Positions 1 to 39,404 of a DNA stretch of 64,000 nt are shown here, one piece after another (the first letter of the stretch is position 1; each line of letters starts with the position of its first letter). A program made the position numbers and the translations under genes. Below the pieces are notes generated by a model, which was not told the DNA's origin, searched no databases, and saw only the letters and a program-made list of their open reading frames with translations. Source of the DNA: Strigops habroptila (Eukaryota > Chordata > Aves > Psittaciformes > Psittacidae); assembly GCF_004027225.2 (NCBI RefSeq), contig NC_044279.2:40572744-40636743 (forward strand). Direction: 5' to 3'.

Positions 1-142
1 AATTCCGTCAGAAGGTGATGCTGGGAACTCCTTTCCTAGTTATTTGGCTGGTTGGGTTTATAGCAGACCTAGACATTGATTCTTGGCTCATTAAAGGGCT
101 GATGTACGGTGGCGTTTGGGCAATGGTGCAGTTTCTTTCAAA
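1..142 (+). CDS. ZDHHC17: ZDHHC17 exon a (partial): membrane helices
   Basis: The frame starts at position 3 ([19 protein letters not shown]...). It encodes a hydrophobic stretch, a short DLDIDSW loop and a second hydrophobic stretch ending FLSK. The donor is AA|GTAAGT at 143, which leaves phase 2. The true 5' end of the exon is outside or at the window edge, so the acceptor cannot be seen. Confidence 0.95.
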
Positions 143-3100
143 GTAAGTGTTTTACCAGGACGCTGTCTGTTTAGTGTGTGCACACAAGAAATATTTCGCT
201 GGCATCTTTACTGGATAAATAATCTTAAATTTCTTTTTTGTGTGTGTTATTTCAACATGCAACATTAATCTTTTGTTCTTTTTTTTTTTTTTTTTCATTA
301 CTATTTCTGGGAAAGATCATGTGCGACTTTAGCTCTTGTAATGCTCTGTTGTCTTGCAAATAGCCATGAAATTACCGTGGGGGAATGCCACTGAGCTAAT
401 AGAAGCTAAAAGCAGAACAGAAATTCAGTCATTATCCAGAGGAGGGTGCTGAATGTCTACAAAGAGTTGTCAGCATCAATTCTGCAGAAAGCAGTCAGGG
501 GGAGTTACTAGAAAGGAATAAAAAATTATAAGAGCAAGTGTGCTGTTACAACCTGGTTTTTGTTAGAATTTAAATACCCAAAGGCATCGAAAGATGCTTA
601 TAGAGAGAAATTAAGTCAGAGTCACAGAGTGGAAAGGGGTAACTAAAGAAAAAGGCTGCTTTCTAATAATATTTTCAACATGTTACCTGATCATAAAGAA
701 TTTTAGTTGTATTTGTGGCTACTTTAAATATCTGTAAATGCACCTATGTATACATGTGCACACACATACTCATGCAGGCATGCTCCAGTGGATTTTCAAG
801 ATCTGTAGACTACTTTATCTAGCCTGTGCTTTTCTTCGTCATGTGTGGCATGTATAGAAGAACTTGTTATATCTTCATACTTACAAACTTTTTGCTTTTC
901 TGGCATTGAATGTCGTTTTTGTTAGAACTACTTACTTCTCCGTCCTTTCTGTTTAAAGAGGAAAAGAAAATATATCTGTTCCTTAGACCAAGTTCATAGA
1001 ATTTTAGTGAACTTGGTACACCGGAGGGGGGAATGGTGGTGGTGTCATCAAGTTTTTCCCTCTGCAGGGTCTCGGAGGTGATCTGTTCAGACTTTTTGAC
1101 ATCTCTGAGGCTGTGCAATTTGCTGACCTTTTCCCACAAATAACTATTTGGCAGTGCAAATCCTCAACTACGCCTCCTGCAGGAAGCAAGGACAAAATTC
1201 CTTCAAGTTTCTCAAGATTTATTTTTTTGTCAAGTTTTATATTTTTTACCTCCCTGACACACATTCAGGATTAACATTCTTACTTTGTCTTATCATTTGC
1301 TTAATGTTTAGTATAAATACTTTCTGAAGTGTTTTTCACAAAGGCCAGGTTTGAATGAAACTATTATTCTAGTAGTATTTCCTTTCCCTGTTGAATTTTA
1401 GCTAACCTGCTTAGCTGTGTTTTCTTTCCTACTCCTTTCACACACACACACACAAACACACACGCACAGAGATCACTGAAAGAAAGATTTTTGCTGAGGA
1501 ACTACTGTGGGTCCAAATGTATACTCATTTACTACTCACCATCTTAGCTCATCTTCCTTATAGGATTTTCTCAAAAGACCTAAGGAACTTCCATTAGAGA
1601 TGAGACCGTTACTGCAGGAGTGAAATGGAAACTACTCAGTGCACACATTTGTCTGTGGCAGCCCTGAGGGCACCACCAAATAAAGTAAAATGCATCAGTG
1701 TAAGGATGTTTAGGCAGATAATGGAAGAAGTTTTATTTCAAGGGGTTGAGCAGTTTAGAGTGTGACTTTTGACATGTTTAGCAATTTTTTGCTTGAATAT
1801 GGAGTAACCTGGTCACTCACCTAGTTGATCTCAACTCTATTCAGCATTATTCAGAATAGTCTTTAAGATGCAAGCGATAAGAAGGTGAAAATATTTCTGA
1901 TGGCTTAATTTTTTTAATTTTTTTTAATTTTTTCCTTCAAATTAAGGGAGCAGCGTTCTATCTTTAAATTGGGTAAATCTAGTGATATGGGAAACGAATT
2001 AATCTGGGTTTTTTCCAACTTTCTATAGGCAGGTGTACCCAGAAGAGGTTCAAGAATCTGAAATATTTCAATTATGTAGGCTGATAGCAGCAAGGTCTCT
2101 TAAGCTTTTTTCTTACTAAAGTAATTTTAACATGTAGCTTTCATTGTATCGGTTTCCAAAGTATCTTTAGCACTGACATCTTGTAAGTAAGTGCTGTTTG
2201 CAATCACTGTCCATTTAGGCAAGGAATCTCATGGGTTTCTAACTGCTTTCACAGTATAGTTTATCATGAGTATTTGCTCGTTCTACCTTTCTTCTTTCCA
2301 GTTCTTGACATTCACTTCAAAAGTAAATGTATAAATTTTAATTAAATAACTTTAAGTCAGCTGGACAGGTCGAAAACAGGAATTTCTCATGAAATTTGAT
2401 AACATTGAGGAAAATGTTTTCATGGTGTATTTTGCAATATCCCATATAGAACACATTTTAACAGGAAGCACTTTCCAGAAGCAGTAGTTCAGGCTTTATA
2501 AGTTGAAACTTATCATGTGAAATTGTTCCTACTTTACAGGTCATTCTTTGATCACTCCATGCACAGTGCACTGCCTCTTGGAATATACTTGGCAACAAAA
2601 TTCTGGATGTATGTGACATGGTTCTTCTGGTTTTGGAATGATATCCTTTTTTGTATACAGTATAATAGTATTTCTGTATGTTAGTAGTATGAGGTAATAC
2701 CTAGATAGAGCCTACATACAAGAGTAAGTAAACTAATTTAATTTTTTAAATGTCTGTGGCCATTAAACATTGCTTTCTGAATTGGTGATAATTATTTTGT
2801 TGCTTTAAAAATGTGCACTATTTCCTTTACTAAATAAGTTGCTTTCCTTTGGTAAATGACATTCCTCAAAATTGGCTTACAGTAGTCTGCAAAATTTCAT
2901 GTGCTTTAGCAATTTCTTAAGTGGGGGAAATGTAAGCAACTCCATAAAATATGCTCTAGCTGAGAGGTGACGAGGTGTAATTGCGTGCATTTTTAGATGC
3001 CACTTTTCTGAAAAGCAGGAGGTAATTTCATGGTATATATCAATTCCAGTGCAATTAGCTTTATGGTTTGTTCTTCCTAAAGATTTTGCAAATCCCATTT

Positions 3101-6100
3101 CATACAAACTTTAGATACATTTGTTAACTGTATTTTCAGTCTTTGAAGATGTATGTATTAACAACACTGGGTTATAGATATTTCATCTTTATATGTTTTT
3201 GACTGTGTCTAGATATGAACTTTATCCACCTTCAGGAAATAGACTCAATTTTTTAAACAACTTTCTTGGGTATTGTAATTACAGTAGAGATTTAATGTTT
3301 TATTAAATGTTTAATGCAGTTCTCATAGTTGTAAATAGTTGAAGTGAACTTAATATTTATGATGGATGTTGGCTTGACTTTTCTAGAAACTAGTTTTTGT
3401 CCTCAAAGGAATTACCATGAAATAGGATAGTAGCAGTGCAACCCTTTTATCATCTTGTTAATATATTCTCCAACCCTAGCTAAATAAGCCTCGCATTTTT
3501 GAGCTGAGAACAGAGAGGAGACCTTGCTTCCATGTTGTGTTTGGCTTCTGTGCTAATAGTGTTTGCAAAGATGTTGGGGTGAACAATAGCAATTGCATGT
3601 GCCTGGAGATGACTGCTGTTTCACGTTTAAAGAAAGCTAAAGATTAAAATCTAATTGAAAATCTATTTTTTAAAAAGGAGAATCTATCAATATTAGCGTG
3701 AATAGATCTTGAAATAGTTATTTAGAAATTCTGGTACCACTGCCAGTCTCTCTGCCTGGGCTGATTTTCTGTGTTTTTACTCAACTGAATTTAGTAGGAA
3801 CTACGGAATGAGGAAAGCAAGTATGAAATGAATGTGAAAACTGTTTTTTAAAAGCAGTGGTTAAAAATGGAGGTACACTTTTCCAGTTTTTATGGAACGG
3901 AGTAGAACTATCTAAATATGTCATGCCTCTAGACTGAAGTTGCTCTTCTGTTCTTTTTCTTAAGAAAAACTTTAATAAATAGTAAAATACAGGTTTCTGA
4001 GGCAGTTATAAAAACTACACCACCTCACTTCTGAATCTCAGCTCTCCATACCATGAGGGTTTCCTTTAGAAATTCATGTTTGCTAATGCTGCTATCTGTT
4101 TTGGGTTGCAAATGTTGAGCTGTTGTGAAATGCTTTCTTGTGCTAGCATAACATCAGCTTGAACCAAATCTAAGAATGTGTGCAACTTTAAATCAAAGTA
4201 CTCGACCATATTAAAATGGCTGCACAGCCATCACAACTTGATGATGGCCTCAAGCTTGGTGTAGAAAGCTGTCCCTTAAGGCTGGCGAATTGGGAGATTT
4301 TTATCCTGAAGCTCATGTTTTCTTCAAATTTGTACCAGCTTGCTTAGATTTTTATTCGTTAGCCGTTCTGATTAACGTAACTTGAAGTTTGGGAGTGTTT
4401 TGTCATAGAATAATGTTCATTGTCCAGTACTAGAAGTAGTAACCACAGACAATTAATTACCCTACTAAACTCTGACGTCTAAATGTCAATAAAATACTGT
4501 ACTGCTTCTGTAGTTTAAGGTAGGTGCCTCCAAATCTTTGCAACAGTCTTTTTGTACACAGAAGTAGTGGTCTAAAAACTTCAGTTACTAATTGCTTTCA
4601 TTAGAGCTGACACATTTCTCTGACAAGCAGTTTTAGAGACTAAGCGCTTGAGGCCATCTTCCTTTAATTGGTGATTTTTAATTGGAAGTCTTTCTAATAA
4701 GATTCCAAATTCATTCTTCTTCTTCTGGAAAATTGCCCTGTAGCTTTATTGGAAAAAAGAAATTGCATGCCTGCTCTATTTTTATAGCATGAGGCACAGC
4801 ATTGTGGTTGGAGAAAGGGTTCTTGTATTTTTACAGCTTTATACGATCACTTACAGCAGACTAGAGTACTACTTTATATTCTGTAACGTTCAAGTGATAA
4901 AAGCTGTCCTTGTAGTTTCTACAAATTCTGACCATCTTTTGCTCAGGAAAAAGTTTCAAACCTTAAACAGCTGTCATGAATTGGCTTACTGGAACTTTGT
5001 GTTATAAATAATATAAAGGTCTTAATTGCTGCAAATATTACTTTAATATTTGGGTATTTGGTAAGAATTTTCTTTTCTTGTAGGTGTGTTGAAGGTGTCT
5101 GGAAGATCATCTGGTCTTTTGGGTTTAAACCTAATGAGACGGAAAAGGGCAGTCAAAACAATCTATCATAAAGAACAAGCAAAACCAAAGATCAGCAGTG
5201 TGTTTTCTTGAATTTTAGGGTGGTCACATGAAAAATAAGTCTATAAATTCTAAGGCAGTGACGTGTCTTCTAAAAGACCAATCCTGAAAGTAAATTCAAA
5301 CAGTTTAGATGAATCTAGTATACTGAGTTTTTGTAAATGTTTTTATTCTACCAGGTTTTTCTCTCAGCATCTTCTGAGTCTGGTATATTTGTTAAAATAG
5401 AAATCTTATTCTTGCTGGGAATGAGGAAGTTATGATTGGTGTATTTATGGATATAGGAGTCTATGGTCCTATGCTTCACTGCCACAGTTTTACCGCTGTT
5501 TTACTGCTTCCCTTTAACTGTATTTTGCCCATAACAAAGGATAGTTATGTCTTGCTCTGTCAGTGTATTCTCATCTTCTACTGTTTGCAGAGTAGGGGGA
5601 AAATACCCTCCAAAATCCTACACATTAAATCACTGTATTTTAATATAGTTTTTTTAAAAAAGGATTTAAAAGTATACTTTTAATAGCATGAGACTAGAAT
5701 TTCACATTTCATTCTATTTTCATTAGTATTTATAGGTAGAACGTTCTCTTGTGTCCTGTAAAAAGTTGAGGGCACGTGTGCTGAGTTCCTATCTCAGTTC
5801 ATGCAGTCTTTTCAGTTCCAGCTGAACAAATAGTGCTGGTTATGTAAGAAAGTTCTTATACTGCTCTCTTTTTCTAAGATGTCAGGGTTTGCTGGTGGAA
5901 ATGGAATGTGCAGTATAGCTTTTCTGGTATAGCACAGTATTTGCAATGCTGAGATTATGAGATGGTATAAGTTTATAATTTTTAAAATAATTTATCATTG
6001 ACTAATACTGTATTATCTGGTTTCAAATATACTTCATGTATCAATGGGGTTTAGGTGAAACAAACTGCACACTTTTTCAATTAGAGATCATTTTAAACAT

Positions 6101-9100
6101 GGGGTGTAAAAGAATTCATGGTGATTTTCATACTTTAACAAAGCTGTTACAACAGCATAGTGTGTTAAAAATGGTAACAAGCCAATTGGTAGGGCTAAGC
6201 AGTTAAAAACAAAACCAACATTCATATTATACCCAAACTACCTTCAGGAAAACAGCGAAAAGCCTTGCAAGCAGAAAGAAAGAATCTAGCAGCCATTCTT
6301 CTAGAAGAAACCAAAGACCCAAAAAAACCAACCCCCAGGCCCAGCGATCCAGAACTTTTGTTCCTATGTCTGAATTATTTTTTTTTCATATTAAAAAAAA
6401 AAATTAATTATTTTTTATTGGGGGGAGATGGCAGTGAATGCTTTTATTTTTTTTGCAAGCCAAGGGATTTTTTTATGTTAGATGAAACACGGAAGTATAG
6501 AGAGCTTTTGCAGAGCTTCAGTTGATTCAAAATGGATTTTGTCTAATATGCCTATTCAAATGAGGCTTCTTGTGTAGCTGTCCTCTGTTACCTACCTGGA
6601 CTCTTGAATCCAGATGTACAGCTGCTATGAATTGGCAGGTTCATTAGCATCTGTTGATCTCTGTCAGCTTTCACTGGCTGCAGGTTTTTCTCTGTAGGAG
6701 AAAAGGATTTATTACTGGATTTGTAGATAGTGGAAGGAAGTGTCTTGGTCTATAATGTGCATTTTGGCTTGCTTTCAGGCACTTGTATGATGTGTAGCTC
6801 TGATAGCAGGAAGCTGCTTATGTTTGGGCCTTTCTAAATAGGCTGCAGTTCAGTATGGAAAATCAGCTCATCGGGTGTTTACCTCGCTCATGGGTTGTAG
6901 GGTACTTGTTAGGTTTTAGTTTTCTTTTTAATGAGATGGTCTTTTTGGTTCCAAGAGGTTTCCTGGAATAATTTTCAGCCTGTTGAACTTGTTCTAAGCG
7001 TTAAAGGATATTGATTAGGACTAAAAGTAGGAAGTGTTTCGTGGGTGTTTCTGCTTTGATTCTCACAATGCTAACTGGGAAAACGTCATAAAAGACAGCA
7101 AATTGGTGACAAGGCAGAAGGTGAATGCCTGCTATATCATACATTTTGCAGCCCTTAATAATATGGTAATGTGTTTTGCCTTGTGTAGTTGTAAATGAGG
7201 ATGTTAGGACAAAACAAGGCACTGTAGAAAACCACTTCCCTACTCCCTAGCTGATGCAAACCTACAAGGTTTCATGTGCATGGAGAGTTTTGAGAGATAT
7301 CTGTGATAGAAGATGCTAAAATCTCTTTGGAAATAAACTTCAGTGGAGAGTTCAACATGGTTTTGGATACCTCTAGTGTGGACATCCATATCCAAGTTAT
7401 TTGTTTAAGCTCTCTTCATAACCAGGGGAGAAAAATAGCTGCTTGTAGAGCACTGCTTCTCTGACTTAATGTAAATACCCTAATACTGAAGATAGATTGA
7501 AGGTGGCTTTTTCCTATCTGTTGTGTATGAAGGCATACTGAGTGATTTAAGTAAATAAGATTAATCCCACAGTTGGAGTTGTTTATCTACGTCAGATGCC
7601 AGAAATACCCTGGAGGAGGCAATTCTTTCACCCTCAAAGTCTGGTTGGTTTTCATCCCCTCTCTCCAGTTGTGTTTAAAACTTACGAGAAATAGGTTTTT
7701 GAAGGCACTTATGAAAAATACTGCTGAGTTTATCTTTCTCCATTTACGTAGTTACTGCTTATCTATACTTAACTCTACTTTCTCATGTAGTCTCCTGAGA
7801 TCTCCCATCCTCAGCACAGAAGTACCTTATCTGCCACCAGTTAAACAGTCAGCATTGCACTCATCTGAAACCACCATAAGAGGAAGGGCAAAACTTAGAC
7901 TCTGTATTTTACAGAGTCAAATGGTGGAAGAGTAGGTTCAGAAAATGGACAGCTTCTTTATCACACAGATTGTCCAAATTCTAGTCAGTAAAAAAAAAAA
8001 ACAAAACCAATTCCAAAAAGTTATGGTTATAAAACCCCTTTTACTGGCTAGAAGATAAGTTGTCTTCCCCCTTTTCCCCCCCCCCTATTTTCTTTAACAG
8101 TCTAGGCATGACGTAGAGTAATTAGGAAGGGGTCATACAATTCTTTTCAGTTGTACCTTTATTGTTTGTAACAGATGTCTGATTAACGTAATTTTAATGG
8201 AGGAAAAAAAAAAATAAGGTTTCACTGTTGTGGCAAAACCCCCAGTGATACTTTTAGTATTCTAAAGAAAATGTAATCTCTCTTAGCTATACAAATATGC
8301 TGAACCAGTTTATTCTTGGCAGCAGGTAATTTTAGAAGAAAAATAGGAAGAAATTAGATTGTAGAAATATTAAAGTCAGAGCTTTTAATCTGTAATGTAT
8401 CAAATAGAACTGTGTTCAGGCTATAGTGTAGCTGGTGGGTTTGTTCCCCTATTATAGACTTGCTGGAAACAGCTTGTTAGAGGAAAGATTAATTAGCTTT
8501 AGTGAGTTAACACTAACATTCTACTATATAAGTTACATGATTAAAATTTGAACTTGCCAATGTTTTTAATTAGAAATTCACGGCCAATTCTTCCCCCCAA
8601 CAGAAGGAAAACAAGTTATTCAGCATACACTCCACACGAACAATGAGACTTTCTTAGCATTTCAGAAGTCAAAAAGAGACCTTACTTGCATTTGTTCCTA
8701 TTTCAGAGTCTTTTCAGATCACACAATTAGAATAGAAGGATTTGAGATACTTACTGTTATTCTATAGAAGTGCTGTTTTTTCAGTTAATCTTTTCTTGTA
8801 TCTGTACCATGTGATTTGTTTATAGATGATTTATGTAATTTTTTCTTATTACTACTTAATGCCTTCAGTGAACATTTTTCCAAGAATAGTCAGAATAGAA
8901 TATACTGTAGCTATATAGTAGAATATATTTGCCATATAATGCTTGTTATCAAGTCTTATATGCAGCATTTTGTAATGCAAGCACACAACATGTTAAAATT
9001 GAATAACAGTAGAAGTTCTAATGATTACCAAAGTAGAGAGAAATATTCATCCAAGTTACTCAGAATAGAATGTAATTTGGGTGTGCAGTGAGTGATTTAT

Positions 9101-12100
9101 GCCTGAATAATCAGTGTCCTTTTTGCCTGGATAATGCTGTAGAGGCTTCTGCCACCACAGCTTTGTCAAGTATGGCATCTCCTTGCAGTTATGACTGACA
9201 GCTGACAGGTATCTTTAGTTTGGTTGGTTAGGGCTTTTGTAAGTTTATCAGAGGATATAATTTTCCACCTTTTATGGAAGAGGCATGTCTGAAGTATTTG
9301 CTTTTTCAACATCATTGCTAAGAAATGTTTTATTTCTTTGAAGAAATGTGATGTGTTGTAAGACTAGGCATGTTATATGGCAAGTCATTCAACACAGGAA
9401 ACATATTTTAAAACTAATGGTTATTTTCTGTCTTTATATGGTAACTGATTTTATAAACACTTCCAGAATACTAAATCCTGTGGGTTTGTAAGTATTAGAT
9501 GTATTAGTATGTTAAAAATAACTTTTGTTGGTGTAAAATATGGGTATTGCCTTATAATAGGACCGGGTTTCAGACAGCACCTTTGCTTGGAGATAAGTGG
9601 TGTTGAGACATGATTGCCATGCAACAGTGGTTGTTGCAACACAATTCCTTCTATGGCTAGAAGGAGTCCTTTCTGTGATCTAACAGGAATGTCAAGCAAC
9701 TAAAGATATAGGCAGTCAAATGTCTGTCTTATAAATAGAGCTCTGAAATGTTTATTGTGAAAACAGGAAATACTTTTGAGAAGATAATTTTCATGGAGTT
9801 TAAAAGGGAAAATAATTACGAAAACTGAACTATCATTCATTCTTTAGGAGGATAAGCGATTTAGAAATGTCTCATGGAGAACAGCACTTTAAAACGTAAG
9901 TTTTCAAGTTTGAGCAATAGAAAATACTAAGTACCACACTGGTTCTTACAGCTGTGCTGAGTTTTGTCAACTCAGAAGACAGTGACTCAAGGGCATTCAT
10001 AAAAATGAAATTCATTTAAATTTTATTTCAGAATTGTCAGTGGGTATTTTCAAGAGGAAATTTGGGTTTAAACTTTAAATTCCTTGACTTCAAACACATC
10101 TCAATTTTTTCTTTATACATCTTCCATTCCTCGCGAATAGCGTTGCACTTTTCTACAATTTTGGAAAATCCTGGAAATCTGATCCAGGAATCATCAAAGC
10201 CACAGAAGAACAAAAGAAAAAGGTAAAGCCATGAGATATGTGAAACTTGTTCTTCGGCACCCTTCCACTAGTTGGTCAGAGTAGTTTGCTGTTCAGTAGA
10301 TGTACAACAATTTATTGACATTACGACAGAAGGTCTAAAATGTTGAAAAGTCTTGTCTTCCAGCTTTCTTTTTTATATTTGAAATATGTGTTCAAGTCTT
10401 ACTGGTTCAAAGTTGTGTTTCAGTCATTTTGAGTAACAAAATGGACTTTTTATAAGGGCTTGTAGTGATAGGACAAGAGGTAATGGCTTTAAACTGAAAG
10501 AGGGTAGATTTAGGTAAGATACAAGGTAGAAATTCTTTACTGTGAGGGTGATGAGACACTGGCACAGGTTGCCCAGAGAAGCTGTGGCTGCCCCATCCCT
10601 GGCGGTGTTCTAGGCTAGGTTGGACGGGGCTTTGAGTGACCTGGTCTAGTGGAAGGTGTCCCTGCCCATGGCAGGTGGCTGGGAACTAGGTCATCTTTAA
10701 GGTCGCTTAAAGATGGGGCCAAACCCAAACCATTCTATGATTCTGTGAAAAATAAAATTGCAACTTAAATTTTCAAGATAAAAAGTTTAAAAAGAAGTTG
10801 GGTGAAAATGAAAGGGTGAAGCTCCAGAGTTTTGCCTAACTGAAACAAATAACTCATTATGGGAAAAGTGTTAGTTAATTTGATTTTCTAAAAACTTTCC
10901 AGACTTTTAAGCACCTCTAATTTTCCTTGTGTCTAAAAGTATTAGACGGACAAACATTTTGAGACTAAATCAACCAAAACACCTGGCAATCTGGGGTGGA
11001 TTTTTTTTGTTATAGATATTAGAGAAAATATGGATGATCAAATGATACCTTTCTAAGATGTTCTAACACTGTTATTAGCATTTCTGATTTCTTTTAATTT
11101 AAGTGCATTGTTCTCAGCAGCCAAACTGAGCACTGAATATGCAAAAATTATACAAGCAGAAGAAGTGCTCTGTTTGTTTAATTTTGTCTAAGTTTCCTAG
11201 AAGCTCACATCCCGCCAAAAGCGAGGTTTGAGCTTTTTACTTCAGTCACCTGTGCGGATCGTCATCGGACCATTTGGAATTATGGCCTTACCTAGGAATG
11301 AATTATAATAGGCTTTAAAAGGATGGTTGCCATATCTTAAATAGTTTTTGTATTCTCCAACAGGTTATAACTGAGTTGTTTAGTCAATGTGCACATTGAT
11401 TTTGCAAATTCCCTTTCTGTTATTGCAAATTTGCCAAAGTAAATTCCAGACTAAATTCTCTTCCTTCAACTGGACTAAATTAAATAGCATAGTCAGCAAC
11501 TGCACTTTGGTTTGGATGCATCAAATTACACAAATATGCAATTCATTTGATCTACTTGCTTGAGTAGTTGAGTGTGGTTACAAAAGCCTTGCTGAACTGG
11601 ATAGGAATTACAAAATGCAGCTTCTTCAGGCAGATGCATATGGCTGTGAGTGTTTTAGATTTCTTACATTGCAGTTAACCAATCTTTAAAATGATCTATT
11701 GTCAGCGTTATCAAGCACTGTAGGACATGTGCCTTACCTTTGTGCAGTGTAGTGATGTCTCACATTTTCATAATTTGTCTCCAGATATTTAATGTTGAGT
11801 TAGCCTTTACCTTTGGAATAAGCAACCAAAAGAATTCTTTTAATTCCAGTTTGCCAAATTAAGTATATTTGGAAATGTGTAGTAAGCAACAATTTCGGAT
11901 GTTTATTCTTATGATATGTCATGTCCTTTCTTCCATGTTGCAAAATAACCCAAGTCAGTCTTATAATGAGTAAATAAAGAAAATTTTCTGTAGTTCAAAA
12001 GCATAGAAAATAGACCTAAGGTTTACAAAGCGCAACAGCGTACTCTAACTTGAGTGCTTCTGGGTCTCTGTATAAGCTCAATGAGTTTATATTTAGAAGT

Positions 12101-15100
12101 GATTTATCTGCTCTGGTTCAGTTCTGTTCTCCTGAGCTTTGGGATCTTGCTTGTGGATGATACTGAACTCCAGTGTTGAGCATCACACCATGTACATTCT
12201 GTAGTGTGATGTATACTCCCACTGAAATCAGAGGAACTACTTATGAAATTGTTCAAATATATTGTATGAAATTGTCCAAGGTATCAAAAGGCCACGCCAG
12301 CAGCACTGAAATCTTGGTGGGTACGTCTCATTGTGTGTTTTACTTTCTGTTCATCTGGCTTATTTACAAAAGTTACTCTTGTGAGGGATGCCCTTTAATT
12401 TCAGGTCCTGTAGTGGGGGTATTAGAGCAGTGAGGGATGGCAAAGGGGGATGAGAAAGGGATGTAGAGTGCTGAAGTTGACAAACTGCGTTAAAAGGCTT
12501 GTGAATGGCAGTGGTTGGTTGGAGAGGGGATCTGAAGGGTTGCAGTGGTGGAGGGAAGAACGCTGGCCCAATAGCAAATGGAAGTACAAGCGAGGAGAAA
12601 AATAGTGCAGCTTTCAGAGCTGAGGAGTGTAAGAAAACTGTCAAGTTTATTCCTCATTTACCTGAGATTGCAGGGAAAGCATTAAGACACTGATTCACCC
12701 CCAGCCTGTTGACCATAGCTTTTACTGGTTACTTTCAAGACAAGGTTCCATAAATATTTCATAATCAGAGTAGTATTTTTGAGTAAAACTTCTGCAGCTT
12801 CAGTCAAAATACTCACCTGAGTGGTCATCATCTAATTAAGGAAGTTATGTTTGCATTGCTATGATGAGAAAATAGTTGTAAGGACTATTACTGCTTCTGC
12901 AACCACCTATATGTGTATATGTGGTTTGAAAGGGAGCAGTAGATTAATCTACTTGCCATTAGATTGCTTATGCTGAGTAAATTTCTTCTGGTTCAGGGAA
13001 GATTATTCTGTAAAAGATATTTTCAGGTTATTTTCCATATGTTGCAAATGTCAAAATGTCATTTAAGTCTCACATGGCATGATTTCAGCTGCTGAATTTA
13101 AAAATTGTTGGAAACCATTTAATGAAATAGTAGGTTCCTTCTATTCCAACAATTAAGAGGGTACTGAAGGAGTGTATAAAATTAAAACAGCCCCTTATCA
13201 TTTAATGTGAAATTATAGGTGTGCTTTAACTGATACCTTCTTCTGTGTACCACTTAATCCATAAGCATAGCATTATCAGTCAGAGGAGGTTTGATTTGCA
13301 TTGTTTGGTTTTTTTTTCTTGAAGCTTCAACATCTGAGGAGAGAGGTGAATATAGATTTAAAGCTTTTGATGGGATACCACTGGAAGGAAAGCCAGGTTT
13401 TTAGACTGGCTGATCCTGCTAGCTAGTTTTATTTATGTTCCCATTTGGAAATTCAGCTGCATTAATTCTGGTAGGTTTAACAATGGGTTAGTCAAACCGG
13501 TGCTAACCACTGTGTGGATGTATCAGAATTTATCTAAGCTTGCTTTTTCTCTTATTAAACCTAGATAGACTAGGAATAAGTATAAACTAGAATTAATTGA
13601 GAAGTAAATGTGAATATTGGTTTAATAAAATAGGTTTAAAATCAATTTCAGCTGAATTTAAGTTCTTCCAGTGTGGAAAGTACCTGAAATGAATAGAGTC
13701 CACAGCCCCGAGTCTGAAAAGCAGCTATTACAATGGCTGTCAGCATTTGTTTATGTGCTAAATTCTAATTTCTTACTTTCTTTTTCCCTCATTTTTCTGC
13801 AGACAATAGTAGAACTTGCAGAGACAGGAAGTCTGGACCTCAGTATATTCTGCAGTACCTGCTTGGTAGTGTATTTTTTTATCACTTGCAGCACTGATTT
13901 CTGTTCTGTTAAGCCAAAATTAGATGTTCCTATACCGAACACATTTTTGGCCTTAATAATGCAATTTATTTGTAATCTTTGATTTAAGCTGTGTTTTCAA
14001 TTAATATGTCTGTACACCAAAAAAACTGCAACAATAAGAGGAAAACAAATAATCACTGTGGAAGTAACTTGTTGGTTGTTGGTGTTGCAAACCAAGTATC
14101 TAATATATCTACCCAGATGGTTGGCTATACAGCTAAAAAGTTATGACGAAAATCACTTTTGTAACTCCCAATAAAACTGTGGAGCTTCTAGTAAATTTTT
14201 TTCCGCCAAAAAAATCAAGTGTATTTCCCAATTTGACAGTAATTGAAGGGGATCATAGTTTTTTTAAAGCTTGCCAAATTGAAAGCAAATGCTTTTCTTG
14301 GACTAGTTAGTACTTAGTTTCACCACAGAAAATTTAAAAGGGAATAATTGCTTAAGGGAAAAAAGTAACCATAGTAAATGCAATGTCTTTCTTTTATAGA
14401 AAGTTAACTAGTAAATATAAAATCATCAAGGTTATCAGTGTTACACTGTAATGCTCTGACCTATGTAGAGCGTGAAGGATTTAATATTCCCCAAATTTAA
14501 TCTGGAAAATTATGTACTGATGTGACACCTTAAAAATGGTGTGTGTGTATATACACCTATATCTCAGAATACTTTCGCATCAGTTCTTTTTTTTATTGCC
14601 ATTTCATTTTTCTTTCAAATCATAACCTTTTTTTAAAAAAATATTGGGAGTAACTTAGCATTTTAAGCTCCACCGAGTTCCACTTGTTGAGTCATATTCC
14701 TGTCTTTAGAAAATAAGCTGGGAGAGTTTGTGTTACAGCTCAGTTATGAATGATAGTGACAGAATCGTGGAACTCAAACTCATTCTGTATTTTCATTATT
14801 GAAAAGCTGAAATGAAACTGGTTGCTGTATAAAGCTCAATAGCTGGAGGTGAACTTTGTATGGAAAAAAAATCCTGTATATATAACAAGAATAGTGTGAA
14901 AATCATTTTGATGTGGTTGTATAGATGTTTGTGTTAAATAATGTATAGATAAAGCTTAATACCTAAGATTGCTTTAAAAATTAGTATCAATTTTGAAGTT
15001 TTTTAAGGGGTTAGCAATAGCAAAATCAATTTACATCTAAATGTGGGGAGGGTGCTATTTAAAATATGTCAGGGTCTTTTGCTTTTCTAAACGAATGTTA

Positions 15101-18100
15101 ATAACCCTTACAGATACGGAAGCCAGTGAGGTCCAAACACTGTGGTGTATGCAATCGATGTATAGCAAAGTTCGATCACCACTGCCCGTGGGTGGGTAAC
15201 TGTGTAGGTGAGTAACTTGCTAAAATATGATGTTGTCTTAACAGATAAAGAAGGGAAAAGCTTCTGAAATCAACGCTGGGTGTTGTACAGGTTTGTGTCT
15301 GTTCTCATTTCATGGTGAAAGTGACTTGGCTTCTGCGAAAATCTGAGGAAGAGCTGTTGAGGACGTCTGGTAGAGGGAAAAACATTTTCAGTATTGAGCT
15401 TAATTTTTTTTTTTTCTATATGCAATTCTCTGCATTATTCTCATTTGTATTGTCTGTAATATACTCATCCTCAAAATTGTTCCGTGTCTAATTCAGTTTC
15501 CTATGTATATACTTTTATTAACATAAACTCAATTAAAAGATGCAAAGCTTAACTGCTTTTTAATGTCTGCAGAAAAGGCATGTACCAATTCCACAATGGA
15601 CTGTTATCCATTACATAAGATAAAATCCTTTAATCTTTGCCACTAATTTTCAGTAATTTAATGGGAAAGTGTACTTATTCAGAATGTCATGATGATAGCA
15701 GCTAGATACAGAATGACTTTCTATTGAGATATTCTCCTCTTTTGACTCCCCAGGTAGTCACTTATTGTCCCCAGTGATGATGAAAGGAACATATATAGAA
15801 CAAGAATAAAGTCTCTAAATGCTACTATTCCCTGTCATACATTTTGAGAAACTTACTTGAAAGCCATTATTATGCAGGGAGCATTGAATACTTCACAGCT
15901 AGGAAATGAGTGCAGCCTGCCTCACTGCTTTATTTTTTTACGATACAAAGCAGAGGTAACTTTAATCTTGGGGAGGAATTAGGACCTGGATTCATTTGCA
16001 GCTGACAGCCAATAAATGCTTCATTGTGGTCCTTCCAAATATATATGATAATGGATAGTCACAGTAGTTTGGTCTTGTGATGAAGAGTAAAATAGTCGTG
16101 CTGGCATTTGAATTGTAATAGCACATCACTGAAGTCTCACTGAGATGGACTTATGTCGCTCCCTTCTAGTTTACATTCCCTATTGATGTGACTACCTGAG
16201 CTACTTTTGATTTATATTTTAGATGTACAATGAAGAACTAAGACGTTTTTAATTAAAACAGGGAAGGAGCATGGGCTCAGGTTTTGGGGAATGGTTAGTG
16301 ACTGTTTTGCATGAGTGCAGAGGAGTACTTGTCAATGGGACAGAAGATCCAGTATTTTAATCAGTAACTGGAAAAGCATGAAAAACAGACTGGGGAGGAA
16401 AGACCTTAGTATGTGTGTGTGCAGTAAGAGAGTGAGTAATGGGATTAAGTTAGGTGCAGGAAATGTTTTTTTAAAAACAGTGGTGATGGAAAAACAGAAT
16501 CTGTCTACTGGTGGTCTTGTACTGATTGCTTGGGATAACTGGAGGTAAAAGTAAACATTAGGACACTTGAAAGTATGCTGGGAAAAAAAGCATTAGAAAT
16601 CACACTCTGGGAACAGCCTGAACTGGAGGGAGCAATGGTTGAATGACCTTATATGGCTTCTCTGTTGCTCTCAGATTGGTACATGGTGACTCTGAGCATA
16701 GGATTACAAACCAGAATCCATTCTTAAAACAGCATTCCTGGTATGTTTGCCAAAAAGGGAAACATGAATCACACTTTTCTGGAATGGTGGAATTTGGAAA
16801 TATTTTGTGTAGTCTTCCTTTGAATGTGTTAGAAGGATAAGAATTTTACTAAAGATAGGACTGAGAAATACTCTAACAGTGTGTACAGACGCTAAAATCA
16901 TTTGGGGATAAAACTTGGCACGTAAAGAGATTGAGAGAGAATATTTTTACCATTCTGAAGAGGTTGACAAAAAGTACAGACTATTTGAAGTATAAATTCA
17001 TTGGCAATTGGGGCAAATTATTTGTGTCATACCCACAAAGTTTTAGTTAAAATTGCAGTGAGCAAGTCTCTAAAGGTGATTATACTTGTCTTTTTAAGGG
17101 ATTATCAAAATAGCATTATGCTTTTTACAGTTGGTGGTTTGAAAATAACAAATATTAAACTTGTAGTTACATTTCAAACACAAACTGCAGACTGGCAACA
17201 GAAATTTAGTCTTCAAGTAACAGCATGAAAGGAGCTAGACCCAATTTTTAAATTGTTGAGTCACATGGGTTCTGCTGGTGTTGTACCGAATTATTGTCCT
17301 GATAGCAGTGACTCAGAAGGTAGGTCTTCTGTATATGAGAAATTATTTTATGGTTTCCCCTAAACAGGATTCTTCTACAAGGAGCTAAAAGTAAAGAAAA
17401 ATAAAGAAATGGACGAACAGTCTAAATCATGCACTCTAACTTCATCAATAAAAAATTAATTGGCTTTATTATATGTTACTACTTATGTATAATATATGCA
17501 CAACCATATAGAAGAAAGTAGCAACAATTCTTACAGCATCGTTTTAGCTGTGGAGGATAACAGACTGTTCCTGCCAGACCAGGGTGAAACTGCAGAGAAT
17601 AGTGCTGTGTTTTGTCCAGTCTTATTCAAGATAGAGAAGAAAGGTTGTTTCTCCACTTCTTTTTCCAAAGTCTTTTGTTTGTTAAACTGTAACCAAGATT
17701 TGTGCCTGTCTCTTTTATGGTTTTGAAATGGTACACACATGATTTTACCAGATACAGATGGATTTCCTGTTAAGTAGCATTTGGTTTACTATCGTTGAAG
17801 ATGCTGCTGAATGAGCATCTCATCAGGTGCCTCTCAGGTGGACCTCTAGGTCACTGTTTAACTTCCATTTTTCAAAAGAATGTCTTTAATGAAACTTAAC
17901 AGTTCTGAAATTTAGAATGCAAATGAAAGTTATACCTTAGGGACATTCCCAGCACTGTTTCTCGTATGCTGTAGGTGATTGAAGGCAATGTTACAACATA
18001 TTTTATGTCTGCAGGAACTTGTTTGATTTTCAAGGAAATGTGTTTAGTCTAGCTTGTATTGTATGTGTATTTTTCCTCATCTCTTATTTATATAGTCTTT

Positions 18101-21100
18101 TAGTTCAGTTGCTAAAAGCACTTTATTTTCTGCCTCCAGAGGATGCTCTTGTTTTATCAGGCAAAACATTTGACATAATGAAGTAGTAAATGCTGTGTTG
18201 GTAGATGGTGACAGCCAAATCTTTTGTAGCCCATTATCATCTCTGTGGGTTTAATTTACAGCCTAGAGCAGTTGGAAGGTTGCAACAGTGGACATATTTT
18301 GCAAACAGAAGGAAGACTGAGTACCTCAATTATGATGTATTTGCATAAAAGACATCTTTTTAGCTCTATTAATGTTAAAAATAGATCAGTCTTTCGGTAA
18401 CTGAATTTTCTTGCATTTAAATTCTGTCTTAATGAATGGGATAAAAAACATTCTGCCTATTTTAGCCAGGTTGTCTGTTCAGTTACATGTATTTGTTTTA
18501 CAAGTTCTATTATATATTTTATTTTTAGCTTCATCAACCAGGTTTAAACCTAAGCTGTGAATTAGCTTATTATGAAAGGAGGTTGTATATTTATTCATAT
18601 TTTTATTTCTTTTAAGAAAGTGAATGCTGTAGTCTGATGATTTATCAATGGGATTTTAAAACTATTGATGTGTAATTCCTGGCTGTTCAGGGCTCTGCAA
18701 CAGCTGTCACCAACATTGTTCTAAATCAATAATTTTATTAGCTCATGAAAGGTTACAAATGAAATGCATTTGTGCGAATTGCAGCTATAATGTGACAGAA
18801 ATTGAAGAAAATGAAAACATTGCTTTGTTGTCTGAGAAGTATAAAAAAAAGAGAAATTGTAAGTAAACCAGCTAATTTCACTGTCTTGAAGTTATATTGG
18901 CTTAATGTGGGAGACTAATGTTTCTGTATACAATAAGAAGCAGTAATCTAAGCAAACAAACTTTCTGGTGTACTGTTGTCTGTCTTCTAAAAGAGTAGTA
19001 ATTCAATACCTGTTTCTGTGCAACTTTAGGAGCAGGGAACCACCGCTATTTTATGGGATACCTGTTCTTCTTGCTTTTTATGATCTGCTGGATGATTTAT
19101 GGATGTATCTCTTGTGAGTAAATAAGGGCCTTTTGCCCTTTTTTTTTTTTTTTTCAAATTGCCTATAAAGACTTTGTTTATCTCCTGGTATAGATTTTTA
19201 CAAGCTTCTGCCTCATCAGAGTTTTGGATATTTTTATTCTGGAATCAAACTGCACATCACTGATTGACTAGATTGGGTATTTTAAGTTAGAAGATGATGT
19301 TTTTCTTGTCCTAGATTTTTTTCTTTGTCACAGCCAAGTATGTGCATCTGTCATGTATTCAAGGAGTTGGGAAAGGAAGAGAGAACAAATAAAACTAATT
19401 TGGCACATTGTCATTTTCTTATTGAATACATTTGAATTTTGGCATTATGCTGATGTGCTGTAAACATATCTTAAACCTTCTGTATGTTTTCTGACACTTT
19501 GTTTATTCTCTAGACTGGGGGTTCCACTGTGAGACAAGTTATGCAAAAGATGGATTTTGGACCTATGTTACACAGATTGCTACCTGTTCTCCGTGGATGT
19601 TCTGGATGTTTCTAAACAGTGTTTTTCACTTCATGTGGGTGGCTGTGTTACTCATGTGTCAGATGTATCAGGTATGGAAGAGCCCTTCATTTGTAATGCT
19701 GAGTTTTTGGAGTGGCATAAGGATATCTAATAGTTCTCTCATTTGAATTTTCATGTTCATTACGCAAGATGAAGTGTTTAGTCTCAGCCATGCTGGAAGA
19801 GGCCAGCATCTGTTGTCTCTGGATATTAGGCATTATTCACTTCTCATTTACTTGTGCCTTTGTGGAGTTTTTTTGGGAGCAAGAGGTTTAAAATACCTAC
19901 CTCCTGCTTTCTATTCTCAGAATGACAAAAAGGCAAAACAGGACAGAGAAAGGCAATAAATACTAATAGAGGATAAGATCTGTGGGTTGAACTTTGAATA
20001 ATGCAATATGTCATTAGAAGAAAAAGGTGGTAACTTCAAAGGGACGCAGTAATTTCTTACAGTGCTTCAGTGTGATTTGAGACTACGCTACTGTAATGTA
20101 ATCTGACCAAACCCAAGTCTTTGTGTTTCTTCTTAAGGAAAGACAAGTCATACTGAAAGCCTTTAAGTATGGCTTGAAAGTCTTTCAGTATGACTTGTCA
20201 TTAATGAACCATGAGACTTACTGATTTAATTCTTTCAGAGATCCTGGAAATAAAAATAATCCTCTAAAGCTTAGATACAACTTTTCAGGAAATTTTAAGG
20301 TTTGTTCTCCTTTCTCTACAATATTCATCATTTATAACAGATATCAATTATTCTTGGCAAATGTCTTTGGCAAATCATCATTTCCCATAATGATGAAATG
20401 GATAAAATATTCCCTAAAATGCTTCTTTTGATTTGCAATTGCATAGCCCCTACTCTTGTTGCCTTTTTTTTTTTTTTTTGCCTATCCATCGTAAAATTTG
20501 GACCTATCCTTCTTATTGAACTGGCCAGAGTTATTGTCAAAATACTACCTACTATCTTAAAACCTTTACTTCCTACTTCAAAAGGCGGCTGTTGAGCTCA
20601 TTTACATACATAGACATGAAACTTCACAGGGTTTCATGGAGGCAAAGATAATGCTTGAGATACTAAGTACATCCAAATGAGGCAAGCCAGCCCAAGCTTA
20701 ACTTTTTAAATGTTCTTGCTTCTGCAACATGCAGTAGAGTTGACTTTTTATATTTCACAAGGAATGACTAGATTTTATCTTCCTGTAGTATAAGGTTGCT
20801 ATGGATGTTCTCACATTTTTGTTTCCAATTACATCACATTTAAGTAAGATAGCCTTTTAGGCTAACGTAGTTGGAAAGCTAGTAAAATCATAGCCTTTGG
20901 GCCAAATGATAATGGAAAAAGGAAAAAACACAAGTAAGAACAACCAAAAACACCTCACTTTTTTTCTGGCCATCTTCTTGTCTTGCAGGCAGAAAAGTTA
21001 TGTTACTGCAACTTATGTACGAAACTGGAAAAATATACTGATGGAGCTGTAACTAGAATGTCAGGAGGAGAAGGTGGTCATTCAAATGCTGTGAAAAATA

Positions 21101-23239
21101 ACTCCTGAATCTGTCATTTACAGTGCACTTCAGCTAACGATGAACTAAGAAGTCACAGTTTATTCAATGATCATGATTTATTTCTGATCCCTTTCAAAAT
21201 TAAATCTTTTGCACAGTCTGGTACAGGTGTGCTGTGGTGTTTTACGTTAGGACCTGATAATTTCCCTAGACAGAGAATTCCTTCTTCGAGAGAAAGAACA
21301 TAAACCAGTAAATTTGGTCTTCGTTTTTCAGTCTGGCTTATGAAGGGCTTGTTTGTATGTTTTTACATGAGCTAAATTGCTTAATTTTTTTTTTTTTTTT
21401 TTTTTCCCTGTCTTCAGATATCTTGCTTGGGTATCACGACAAATGAAAGAATGAATGCAAGAAGATACAAGCACTTTAAAGTTACAACCACATCTATTGA
21501 AAGCCCATTCAAGTAAGTTTTAAAGTGCAAACATATTTCTTATTTGTGCAGCCTTGCATATATTTGAATTGTGCAGCTTGTTGAAACAGAACATGGCTAA
21601 ATACTCTCTATACTATGAAAGAAGCAGCAGCACTTCCTTCCTGCTCAGGAGGAGACCATGAGCAAAGCTGTTCATGGAGAAGGGAGCAGGATGTCCCAGG
21701 AACTGAAGTGGGTGTTACATGGATGAAACATGGGCTTGAAACATGGGTATCAGTATGTAAAGGGTAGGTTGAGATTCTGGTTTCTGTAATGCTGAGGGTG
21801 CAAGCTGAAAGAGAGAGGGGGTCAGGGATAAAATAGCTCTGGGATGGAAATAGGGCAGCCTGGAGCAGCTTGTGGAGCCAAAGCAGGAAATAAATGGAGG
21901 CATGAGGCTGGTATATTGGTGGGTTGAGATCACAGTACAAAAGGAGCAATGAAAGGACAGAAGCATGTCTCATCCCGCTGCATATGCTTTGTCTCCTGCA
22001 GGGGCTACTGCTCTTTCAGGTGACACCCAGGGGAACAGGAGATAGGAGTTATTGTTGCAGTTTGATTTTTGTGCTAGAAGAGAAACCTGTGTGATCTTTT
22101 TTTTTTTTTAAGTTATATCAGATTTGTAGTGAGAAGCAGACAAGCATTTCTGTATGGTTGCAGTCTTCCAACAGATTAGATTTGTAACAAAAGCAGGTGA
22201 TAGTTTTTCCTGAAGAACACAGGGTGGTGCATGGGATAGGAGAAAACTACTGGTTTGATCCCCAAATTAATGTCACATTCACAAACCATTTCACTGAAAT
22301 AGCTGCTGTTATAAAAATGACTCCTGAAAATAACACCAGATGTCTAAAATAAGTGACTTGTCAGATGAACGTCACCTGTCAGATGAAGCATCAACATCAA
22401 GTAGTTGTCATCATCTTGTTGCTTAGAACTGCTCTTACATATATCGTAACATGAGCTTCTCTTCCAGAAACCTGTGATCTATTCAGCCCATGTATAATTA
22501 AGTTAAAAAACCCCAACATGCTGGAATTTTGATGTAGGTATCTTAAATATTTAACAATGAATTGATTCAGCAGCAGAAAGCACTTGAATGGTTCATTTAA
22601 TTCAGATAATGCTTTCTTAATTTTGTGTTGTCTAGGGACTTAATTGATCTTAGACCTGCAGCTGCTGAACCAGTATGTATGACAGAGATAGATTTTAATA
22701 AAACTTGAAATTATTCTAGGAAGACACTCACTTCATGCTGTTTTGTCTTGCATTCATCTGTACAATGCAACTTTCCTCTTAGGCATCTGAATTACTATGC
22801 TATGCTACATGATAATGCACGTCAGTAACATGTTACATTTTTCCATACAGTGTTAGTAGATAGTGGAAGCAAGTTAGTGTCTTGGTTGTGTCCAAGGATC
22901 AAACATCCGCAAGCCTGGTGACTACTTCTTATTCCAGAACTTGCTCATCAGTAATCACTAAAATAATTGTTAACTGAATTGGTTTTCTGCAGTTAGGAAC
23001 TTAAAGGGTGAAGAGTCGAATTTGTAGGTAGACAAAAAATGTTGTACTTTGGATAAGCTATGATGTTGCTTACTAACATGTGGTTTTGTTCTATTTTTAG
23101 CCATGGATGTATAAGGAACATTATAGACTTCTTTGAATTCAGATGCTGTGGTCTATTTCGGCCTGTTATCGTGGACTGGACAAGGCAGTATACAATAGAA
23201 TATGACCAAACTTCAGGATCAGGCTACCAGCTAGTGTAG
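1..23239 (+). CDS. ZDHHC17: ZDHHC17 (HIP14) palmitoyltransferase, 3' nine coding exons (5' partial)
   Basis: This gene encodes an integral-membrane protein S-acyltransferase of the Golgi and vesicles. In mammals it palmitoylates huntingtin, SNAP25 and CSP-type substrates, which bind its N-terminal ankyrin repeats. I joined exons 1-142, 2540-2640, 10098-10222, 13803-13865, 15114-15207, 19030-19113, 19514-19671, 21418-21512 and 23101-23239. They give one continuous frame of 999 nt after the first split codon, which is 332 residues plus stop. This corresponds to roughly the second half of the 632-residue human protein. In order it shows membrane helices, the DPG motif, a DHHC cysteine-rich domain with an intact DHHC tetrad, two more helices, TTNE (TTxE motif) and a C terminus ending GSGYQLV. 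The ankyrin exons must lie upstream of position 1. The exon sequence is nearly identical to the mammalian protein as I remember it, so identity is secure. The paralogue ZDHHC13 is less likely because it does not have the canonical DHHC tetrad. Confidence 0.97.
143..2539 (+). other. ZDHHC17 intron a (GT-AG)
   Basis: An ordinary GT-AG intron with a GTAAGT donor and a TTTACAG acceptor. It holds a CA microsatellite at 1439-1468 and several T-runs near 281-297 and 1911-1934. I see no exon, RNA gene or recognisable transposon inside it. Confidence 0.9.
1439..1468. repeat. (CA)n microsatellite
   Basis: A run of CA dinucleotides, interrupted by an extra A and by CG near its end, inside a ZDHHC17 intron. 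It is a simple repeat likely to vary in length between individuals. Confidence 0.9.
2540..2640 (+). CDS. ZDHHC17: ZDHHC17 exon b: membrane helix, ends at an AT-AC intron
   Basis: It encodes [20 protein letters not shown] followed by [13 protein letters not shown], a strongly hydrophobic aromatic helix. The exon ends in AATG with phase 1. The following bases are ATATCCTTTT rather than GT. Reading through into the intron departs from the conserved protein at once, which places the exon end at 2640. Confidence 0.95.
2641..10097 (+). other. ZDHHC17 intron b: U12-type AT-AC intron, 7,457 bp
   Basis: The intron begins ATATCCTTTT, an exact match to the minor-spliceosome 5' splice-site consensus (RTATCCTTT). 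It ends in CAAACAC, so the terminal dinucleotides are AT and AC. A branch-point-like TTCCTTGACTT lies at 10080-10090, with the presumptive branch A at 10087, 10 nt before the intron end. There is no polypyrimidine tract next to the 3' site, as is usual for U12 introns. The boundaries are fixed by the protein: G|AT rebuilds the Asp of WND-LNF. Otherwise the intron is AT-rich with T- and A-runs, and I see no other gene in it. Confidence 0.9.
10080..10090 (+). promoter_or_regulatory. U12 branch-point motif
   Basis: TTCCTTGACTT differs from the U12 branch-site consensus TTCCTTAAC by G for A at one of the two adenine positions, which is a tolerated variant. Its spacing of 10 nt to the AC end fits the usual 10-16 nt window. 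Confidence 0.82.
10098..10222 (+). CDS. ZDHHC17: ZDHHC17 exon c: helix plus DPG motif
   Basis: It starts with the second and third bases of Asp and encodes [20 protein letters not shown], then [25 protein letters not shown] is the DPG motif found just N-terminal to the DHHC domain in DHHC acyltransferases. The donor is AAG|GTAAAG with phase 0. Confidence 0.96.
10223..13802 (+). other. ZDHHC17 intron c with a CR1 copy
   Basis: A GT-AG intron with acceptor TTTTTCTGCAG. It holds one CR1 fragment at 10443-10750. The ORFs in the 12.1-12.7 kb stretch occur on both strands and have no splice or homology support. I see nothing else. Confidence 0.88.
10443..10750 (+). mobile_element. CR1 retrotransposon 3' fragment
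   Basis: The sequence carries the usual avian CR1 landmarks in order: GACTTTTTATAAGGGCTTGT, GTGATAGGACAAGAGG, ATTCTTTACTGTGAGGGTG, GGCACAGGTTGCCCAGAGA, CTGGTCTAGTGGAAGGTGTC, and the 3' end ATTCTATGATTCTGTGA. It is 5'-truncated, as is typical, and lies in the sense orientation of ZDHHC17. Near 10700 it contains a small local duplication (CTTTAAGG / CTTAAAGATGG). Confidence 0.95.
13803..13865 (+). CDS. ZDHHC17: ZDHHC17 exon d: start of cysteine-rich domain
   Basis: A 63-nt exon encoding 21 residues ([14 protein letters not shown], then IFCSTCL). It supplies the first CxxC of the DHHC cysteine-rich domain. Both boundaries are phase 0. The donor is TTG|GTAGTG. Confidence 0.96.
13866..15113 (+). 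other. ZDHHC17 intron d
   Basis: A GT-AG intron with a GTAGTG donor and a CCTTACAG acceptor. It is AT-rich, with no recognisable repeats or genes. Confidence 0.88.
15114..15207 (+). CDS. ZDHHC17: ZDHHC17 exon e: DHHC catalytic motif
   Basis: It encodes [20 protein letters not shown], then [11 protein letters not shown]. The catalytic tetrad Asp-His-His-Cys is encoded at 15174-15185, and the Cys at 15183-15185 is expected to form the acyl-enzyme intermediate. The surrounding C/H zinc ligands are all present. The donor is GTAG|GTGAGT, phase 1. Confidence 0.98.
15208..19029 (+). other. ZDHHC17 intron e
   Basis: A GT-AG intron, 3.8 kb and AT-rich, with acceptor CAACTTTAG. The short ORFs inside it (for example near 16.3-17.7 kb) are not flanked by convincing splice sites. 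I see no transposon or RNA gene. Confidence 0.85.
19030..19113 (+). CDS. ZDHHC17: ZDHHC17 exon f: membrane helix after DHHC domain
   Basis: It encodes [20 protein letters not shown], then WMIYGCIS, a membrane helix immediately C-terminal to the DHHC domain. It starts in phase 1 and ends T|GTGAGT, also phase 1. Confidence 0.97.
19114..19513 (+). other. ZDHHC17 intron f (400 bp)
   Basis: The shortest ZDHHC17 intron in the window. GTGAGT donor, TTCTCTAG acceptor, and a T-run around 19140-19154. Nothing else is recognised. Confidence 0.88.
19514..19671 (+). CDS. ZDHHC17: ZDHHC17 exon g: lumenal loop and last membrane helix
   Basis: It encodes [20 protein letters not shown], then [18 protein letters not shown] and [15 protein letters not shown]. 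This is a lumenal loop followed by the final long hydrophobic helix. The donor is CAG|GTATGG, phase 0. Confidence 0.97.
20142..20199. repeat. Near-perfect inverted repeat (23-bp arms, 12-nt loop)
   Basis: The left arm 20142-20164 is the reverse complement of the right arm 20177-20199 except for one position (20160 against 20181). The first 18 bp (GACAAGTCATACTGAAAG) pair perfectly. The loop is AAGTATGGCTTG. The transcript of ZDHHC17 would form a stable hairpin here. It could be a fold-back created by a local duplication, a transposon remnant, or a small-RNA precursor. I do not recognise it. Confidence 0.9.
20989..21230 (+). other. Candidate alternative last exon of ZDHHC17 with poly(A) site
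   Basis: A pyrimidine-rich acceptor (CTTTTTTTCTGG...CTTCTTGTCTTGCAG) ends at 20988. Splicing exon g (phase 0) to 20989 would keep an open frame for 39 residues, beginning [10 protein letters not shown] and ending NAVKNNS, with a TGA at 21106-21108. An ATTAAA signal lies at 21199-21204, followed by a GT-rich stretch (about 21219-21242). Such a product would lack the TTxE motif and the C-terminal tail. An open frame of this length can also arise by chance, so this remains a hypothesis. The end coordinate is approximate. Confidence 0.3.
21418..21512 (+). CDS. ZDHHC17: ZDHHC17 exon h: TTxE motif
   Basis: It encodes [20 protein letters not shown], then [15 protein letters not shown] is the conserved TTxE motif that packs against the DHHC active site. 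The donor is AA|GTAAGT, phase 2. Confidence 0.97.
21513..23100 (+). other. ZDHHC17 intron h
   Basis: A GT-AG intron with acceptor CTATTTTTAG. It includes a purine-rich, more G-rich stretch at about 21.6-22.0 kb whose antisense ORFs look fortuitous. No repeats or genes are recognised. Confidence 0.87.
23101..23239 (+). CDS. ZDHHC17: ZDHHC17 last coding exon and stop
   Basis: It encodes the end of Asn, then [36 protein letters not shown] and TSGSGYQLV, with TAG at 23237-23239. The NxxDFF segment corresponds to the conserved C-terminal (PaCCT-type) element of DHHC enzymes. The vicinal cysteines after it are candidates for regulation by acylation. Confidence 0.97.
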
Positions 23240-30252: not shown

Positions 30253-30329
30253 TCACTGGGCGTGAACAAGGGCGCCCGCTCCCTGGCCGTACCCAAACCC
30301 CTTGGGGCCAAAGTTCTTCGCGTAGCAAC
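30253..30329 (-). CDS. CSRP2: CSRP2 last coding exon
   Basis: Read on the minus strand from 30329, it completes the split Gly and encodes [20 protein letters not shown] then VHAQ, with TGA at 30255-30253. It supplies the last LIM2 cysteine and the second glycine-rich repeat. The acceptor is CTCACAG. Confidence 0.97.
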
Positions 30330-39145: not shown

Positions 39146-39182
39146 ATGACGGGCCCGGCCCAGCCCCGCCGCGCAGCCCTGG

Positions 39183-39222
39183 CCCCAGCCGCAGCCCCGG
39201 CCCGAGCCCCGGCCCCGGCCCC
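39183..39222 (-). promoter_or_regulatory. G-quadruplex-prone tract upstream of CSRP2
   Basis: The plus strand carries CCCC/CCC runs separated by 1-5 bases (CCCCAGCCGCAGCCCCGG, CCCGAGCCCCGGCCCCGG). The minus, CSRP2-sense strand therefore has at least five G-runs with short loops, about 80-120 bp upstream of the inferred start. Confidence 0.75.
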
Positions 39223-39404
39223 GTCGCGGCCGGGCAGCAGCGCTCACATCCTCAGCGTGGGTTCTGGCCCCATCCCAGCCGCAGTCAGATCCGACCCCTG
39301 GGGCACCCACCCTGGAGCGAGGGGCTGAATGGGGTGAGTGACCCTGTGACAGCCACCCCAGCGGGCGGGAAGGCGGCAGGAGCTTCCCCAGCTGTGGCCT
39401 CAGA

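Follow-up and report, generated by a model that had tools for sequence, protein, structure and literature searches.

U12-type introns are recognized by U11 and U12 and subsequently by U4atac/U6atac and U5. Here, we examined a 64,000-base stretch of the Strigops habroptila genome (the window; 41% GC), whose + strand holds a DHHC palmitoyltransferase gene in its 3' half, a gene that we take to be ZDHHC17, and within it a predicted U12-type intron with AT-AC ends. In chicken, AT-AC introns make up 18% of the U12-type introns and the lengths of U12 introns form a single peak; the class is biased against phase 0 (PMC7367187). U12-type introns have an optimum branch-to-3' end distance of 11-13 nucleotides and no distinct polypyrimidine tract before the 3' site (PMC3584512). 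A-type minor introns, taken together, have been described as slow to be removed. After depletion of CENATAC in human cells, 92% of them showed increased retention or increased alternative major splicing, whereas 24% of G-type introns and 0 of 85 major AT-AC introns or related subtypes were affected (PMC8280824). Within the DHHC family, Drosophila CG34449, whose human orthologue is ZDHHC8, likewise has a U12-type intron (PMC2952598, Table 1); this is a different family member, and the likeness is drawn at the family level, apart from intron position or subtype.

Compared with vertebrate U12-type AT-AC (A-type) introns, the intron in the window shows no difference in kind. It is like them in its 5' splice site, its branch-point motif, its AC terminus, and its non-zero phase; its branch also lies a short way from the 3' end, at a distance slightly under the quoted optimum. 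The segment from 2641 to 10097 is almost certainly an ordinary U12-type (minor spliceosome) AT-AC intron in ZDHHC17.

Splice signals of the AT-AC intron

Nine coding segments, delimited by open frames and splice sites, were joined into a product of 327 residues and a stop codon with the frame open throughout. In this product, the Pfam family PF01529 (DHHC) matches residues 133-264 (E 1.8e-37). Seven of the eight introns between these segments have GT-AG ends. The remaining one has AT-AC ends, is 7457 nucleotides long, and lies in phase 1. The exons that flank it are referred to here as exons 2 and 3. Exon 2 closes with ...TTTTGGAATG at 2640 and the intron opens with ATATCCTTTTTTG at 2641; at the other end, the intron closes with ...TTCCTTGACTTCAAACAC at 10097 and exon 3 opens with ATCTCAATTTTTTC. 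The 5' splice site ATATCCTTT and the branch-point sequence TTCCTTGAC both agree with the U12 consensus at 9/9 positions, and the inferred branch A at 10087 lies 10 nucleotides before the last intron base. When the seven other introns were scored against the same motifs, with branch A positions searched from 7 to 39 nucleotides from the end, their 5' sites reached at most 5/9 and their branch motifs at most 7/9. The bias of the U12 class against phase 0 agrees with the phase 1 observed here, as a tendency and not a strict mark.

Each motif alone is not rare in the window. On both strands, ATATCCTTT was found 2 times versus 0.82 expected and TTCCTTRAC 2 times versus 1.23 expected, the expected counts being taken from 60 first-order Markov simulations. 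The joint chance of both motifs at one fixed junction defined by the reading frame is about 5e-10 under a first-order Markov model that admits a branch A 8-15 nucleotides from the end and leaves the AC end uncounted. The second ATATCCTTT, at 7011 on the - strand, lies antisense inside the AT-AC intron; chance alone would give about one such occurrence per window.

The position of the junction is ambiguous from complementary DNA, as shifts of 0, 1, and 2 nucleotides (AT-AC, TA-CA, and AT-AT) yield the same messenger RNA. Of these three equivalent placements, AT-AC with ATATCCTTT is the one whose sequence fits the U12 class. Splicing to a second AC, which ends at 10095 and is 8 nucleotides away from the branch A, would cause a frameshift.

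In the predicted splicing pathway, U11 and then U6atac would pair with AUAUCCUUU, and U12 small nuclear RNA would pair with UUCCUUGAC, leaving A10087 as the branch nucleotide. The second step would join G2640 to A10098, giving the codon G/AU. If it behaves as the A-type minor introns of human cells do (PMC8280824), removal of this intron is predicted to depend on CENATAC too.

Alternative ways of splicing the junction

All 12 GT or GC donors between 2590 and 2690 were combined with all 5 AG acceptors between 10020 and 10160, and none of these pairs (0/60) unites exon 2 and exon 3 intact. The frame stays open in 17/60, each of which trims exon 2, inserts intron sequence, drops the start of exon 3, or shifts the exon 3 frame. 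Because the branch motif contains a TGA in the exon 3 frame and no AG occurs between this TGA and the AG ending at 10140, an upstream AG cannot feed the exon 3 frame without a stop. The preliminary description of this locus had proposed an AT-AC intron with exactly these boundaries, a U12-type 5' motif, and a branch point 10 nucleotides before the end. Our analysis recovered all three: it is the sole AT-AC intron of the eight, the AC terminus is present, and the two defining motifs, so improbable jointly, combine with this terminus and the absence of any intact GT/GC-AG pair to make the U12-type reading well supported.

It is extremely improbable that a GT-AG intron is the one truly used, for example from donor 2660 or 2630 to acceptor 10140, with the frame kept and the residues at the joint altered or deleted. 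These pairs are frame-open, and both donors match 2/7 consensus positions. By this crude score they equal the real donor at 13866, while the six remaining real donors reach 5/7 or 6/7. Frame-keeping pairs with acceptor 10140 delete a 14-residue stretch that we assume to be conserved in ZDHHC17, and GT-AG usage would leave the perfect pair of U12 motifs without explanation. The preliminary description had also held that protein continuity allows no GT-AG intron at this junction. That claim holds only if the peptide W-N-D-L-N-F at the joint is conserved in ZDHHC17, as we presume.

Splicing of the AT-AC intron by the major (U2) spliceosome is barely credible. Major-spliceosome AT-AC introns have the same terminal dinucleotides, but their 5' sites, which we take to be ATAAG-like (ATAAGT), are unlike ATATCCTTT; the intron here begins with ATATCC at 2641, its positions +3 to +9 match the U12 motif at 7/7, and its branch motif matches at 9/9. 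Such introns do exist, 85 of these or related subtypes having been analysed (PMC8280824). We also consider it very unlikely that the locus is a twintron, in which the outer AT-AC pair is set against a nested major-spliceosome pair, formed by a GT near the intron start and the AG ending at 10031, that would give an alternative or poison product. This AG lies 66 nucleotides before the intron end and is pyrimidine-rich (14/20), and vertebrate twintrons have been reported (PMC3564746). The GT sites in the first 60 nucleotides of the intron score 1 to 4 of 7: donors 2680 and 2694 reach 4/7, which falls between the lowest and highest scores of the seven real donors (2 and 6), whereas donors 2653 and 2676 match only 1/7 and 3/7. 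The 2653/10031 combination would add 78 nucleotides that contain stops in the reading frame and might thus give a poison product. GT and AG dinucleotides are to be expected by chance in any intron. A further cassette exon that divides the 7.5 kilobases in some transcripts has a similarly slim prospect. In its favor are the length of the intron and the many short open stretches within it; with an internal exon, however, the ends facing exons 2 and 3 would still be without GT and AG. The sole ATG/GTG/TTG frame of at least 100 amino acids in the intron (7573-7935) had no Pfam match, and no Rfam family reached its gathering score anywhere in the window, results that leave room for a small exon.

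Several points weigh against the assignment of the intron to the U12 class or are neutral to it. The consensus motifs used for scoring were taken as general background. Ruling out the frame-keeping pairs with acceptor 10140 depends on the presumed conservation of the joint peptide, and the Pfam match, at residues 133-264, stops short of the joint between exons 2 and 3. The pyrimidine fraction over the last 20 nucleotides is 0.60, inside the range of 0.55 to 0.95 found in the seven GT-AG introns. Finally, the branch distance of 10 nucleotides is slightly under the optimum of 11-13 nucleotides (PMC3584512).

Gene layout, neighboring gene, and relatives

The coordinates of the features are collected in Table 1. 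The joined DHHC product matches eight distinct solved sequences, all annotated as palmitoyltransferases, with ZDHHC5 and ZDHHC9 first, and three short exon pieces of the gene (33, 40, and 21 residues) gave no Pfam match when scanned singly. The five introns between the six exons from 13803 to 23239 are all GT-AG. Of the preliminary identification of the gene as ZDHHC17, the assignment to the DHHC palmitoyltransferases is borne out by Pfam, and the gene name itself is the probable one, going by the human protein sequence. The name is supported by the presence on the - strand of CSRP2, a neighbor of ZDHHC17 in human. The N-terminal ankyrin repeats of ZDHHC17 would presumably be upstream of the window. 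In the intron that precedes exon 2, a CA-rich simple repeat (about 1435-1475) shows as HTHT runs in translation; a search for tandem repeats with a score threshold of 50 did not list it.

Table 1. Positions of the gene features and splice signals in the window (slashes mark exon-intron boundaries)
Feature	Position	Strand	Remarks
Coding piece of the preceding exon	18..142	+	Donor AAA/GTAAGT; 5' limit provisional
Exon 2, upstream of the AT-AC intron	2540..2640	+	Acceptor tttacag/G, open frame, joined translation; ends TGG AAT G/, phase 1
AT-AC intron, predicted U12-type	2641..10097	+	ATATCCTTT...TTCCTTGACTTCAAACAC
Predicted U12-type 5' splice site	2641..2649	+	ATATCCTTT; 9/9 to the U12 consensus
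First in-frame stop on retention	2682..2684	+	TAG; 14 codons past the boundary
Predicted U12-type branch-point sequence	10080..10088	+	TTCCTTGAC; 9/9 to the U12 consensus TTCCTTRAC; inferred branch A 10087
TGA in the exon 3 frame	10085..10087	+	Within the branch motif; read from the sequence
AC 3' terminus	10096..10097	+	Read from the sequence
Exon 3, downstream of the AT-AC intron	10098..10222	+	Starts /AT CTC AAT TTT, ends EEQKKK; donor AAG/GTAAAG, open frame
Exon	13803-13865	+	Segment of the joined DHHC product
Exon with the DHHC motif	15114-15207	+	Segment of the joined DHHC product
Exon	19030-19113	+	Segment of the joined DHHC product
Exon	19514-19671	+	Segment of the joined DHHC product
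Exon	21418-21512	+	Segment of the joined DHHC product
Last exon, with stop	23101-23239	+	Segment of the joined DHHC product
CSRP2 coding sequence, at least 5 pieces	30253-35266	-	Anchors 35266, 33225, 31807, 31037, 30312

Two exon pieces of CSRP2 are identical to solved CRP2 chains, over 37/37 residues (1a7i, 'QCRP2') and 41/41 residues (1ibi), both of which we take to be quail proteins. The identity makes a bird source likely, short of proof given how well conserved CRP2 is. Of two CSRP2 frames scanned on Pfam, one had no match, and the other matched LIM below the gathering score (20.6 versus 22.9 bits). The window has 32 frames that reach 100 amino acids or more; six of them were scanned on Pfam without a match, and two further frames correspond to CSRP2. 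Upstream of CSRP2, a GC-rich tandem repeat composed of a hexamer and an 18-mer occupies positions 39150-39223, possibly near the CSRP2 promoter.

Among the matches listed in our literature search, no paper was found that names ZDHHC17 (or HIP14) as a minor-intron gene, the search lying outside supplements and the gene lists of the databases IAOD, MIDB, and U12DB. ZDHHC is not mentioned in the main text of PMC7644725, PMC7367187, PMC3584512, PMC6717393, PMC6865273, PMC3564746, or PMC2846911. IAOD covers chicken and human (PMC7367187), and the AT-AC intron of ZDHHC17 is likely listed there. A 25-letter junction pattern had 0 matches in prokaryote genome contigs, a collection that says nothing on vertebrates. 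A 16-letter pattern was found in 23 stretches of viral contigs, and tblastn of the two-exon protein on all 23 gave a best E of 0.15. Protein searches revealed no relative in prokaryote contigs (29 pattern stretches) or viral contigs (6), results that are uninformative for vertebrates.

Retention of the intron and its meaning

If the intron were retained, translation would stop at a TAG (Table 1) before the DHHC catalytic domain, and the domain would be lost. The preliminary description had called the intron long for a slowly removed class. Slow removal is in print for the A-type group (PMC8280824), and the suggestion that 7.5 kilobases would make matters worse finds no support in PMC6717393: the minor introns that are retained in mouse are shorter than those that are not, so that greater length would not be expected to worsen retention. 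Alternative splicing, on the other hand, may affect long minor introns more readily.

It is conceivable, but unlikely, that the AT-AC intron gates synaptic palmitoylation: whenever minor splicing, especially that of the CENATAC-dependent A-type, ran low in neurons, ZDHHC17 transcripts would end 14 codons past exon 2. Were such a gate to operate, the transcripts would either decay or yield a membrane protein that keeps the ankyrin repeats but lacks the DHHC catalytic domain, and that could continue to bind substrates, SNAP25 and huntingtin among them. The 2-nucleotide ambiguity of the junction, together with ends other than GT-AG, makes the intron easy to misannotate. The finding, which may already be listed in IAOD, MIDB, or U12DB, adds modestly to what is known by placing one further gene, itself of neural interest, among those with a minor intron.

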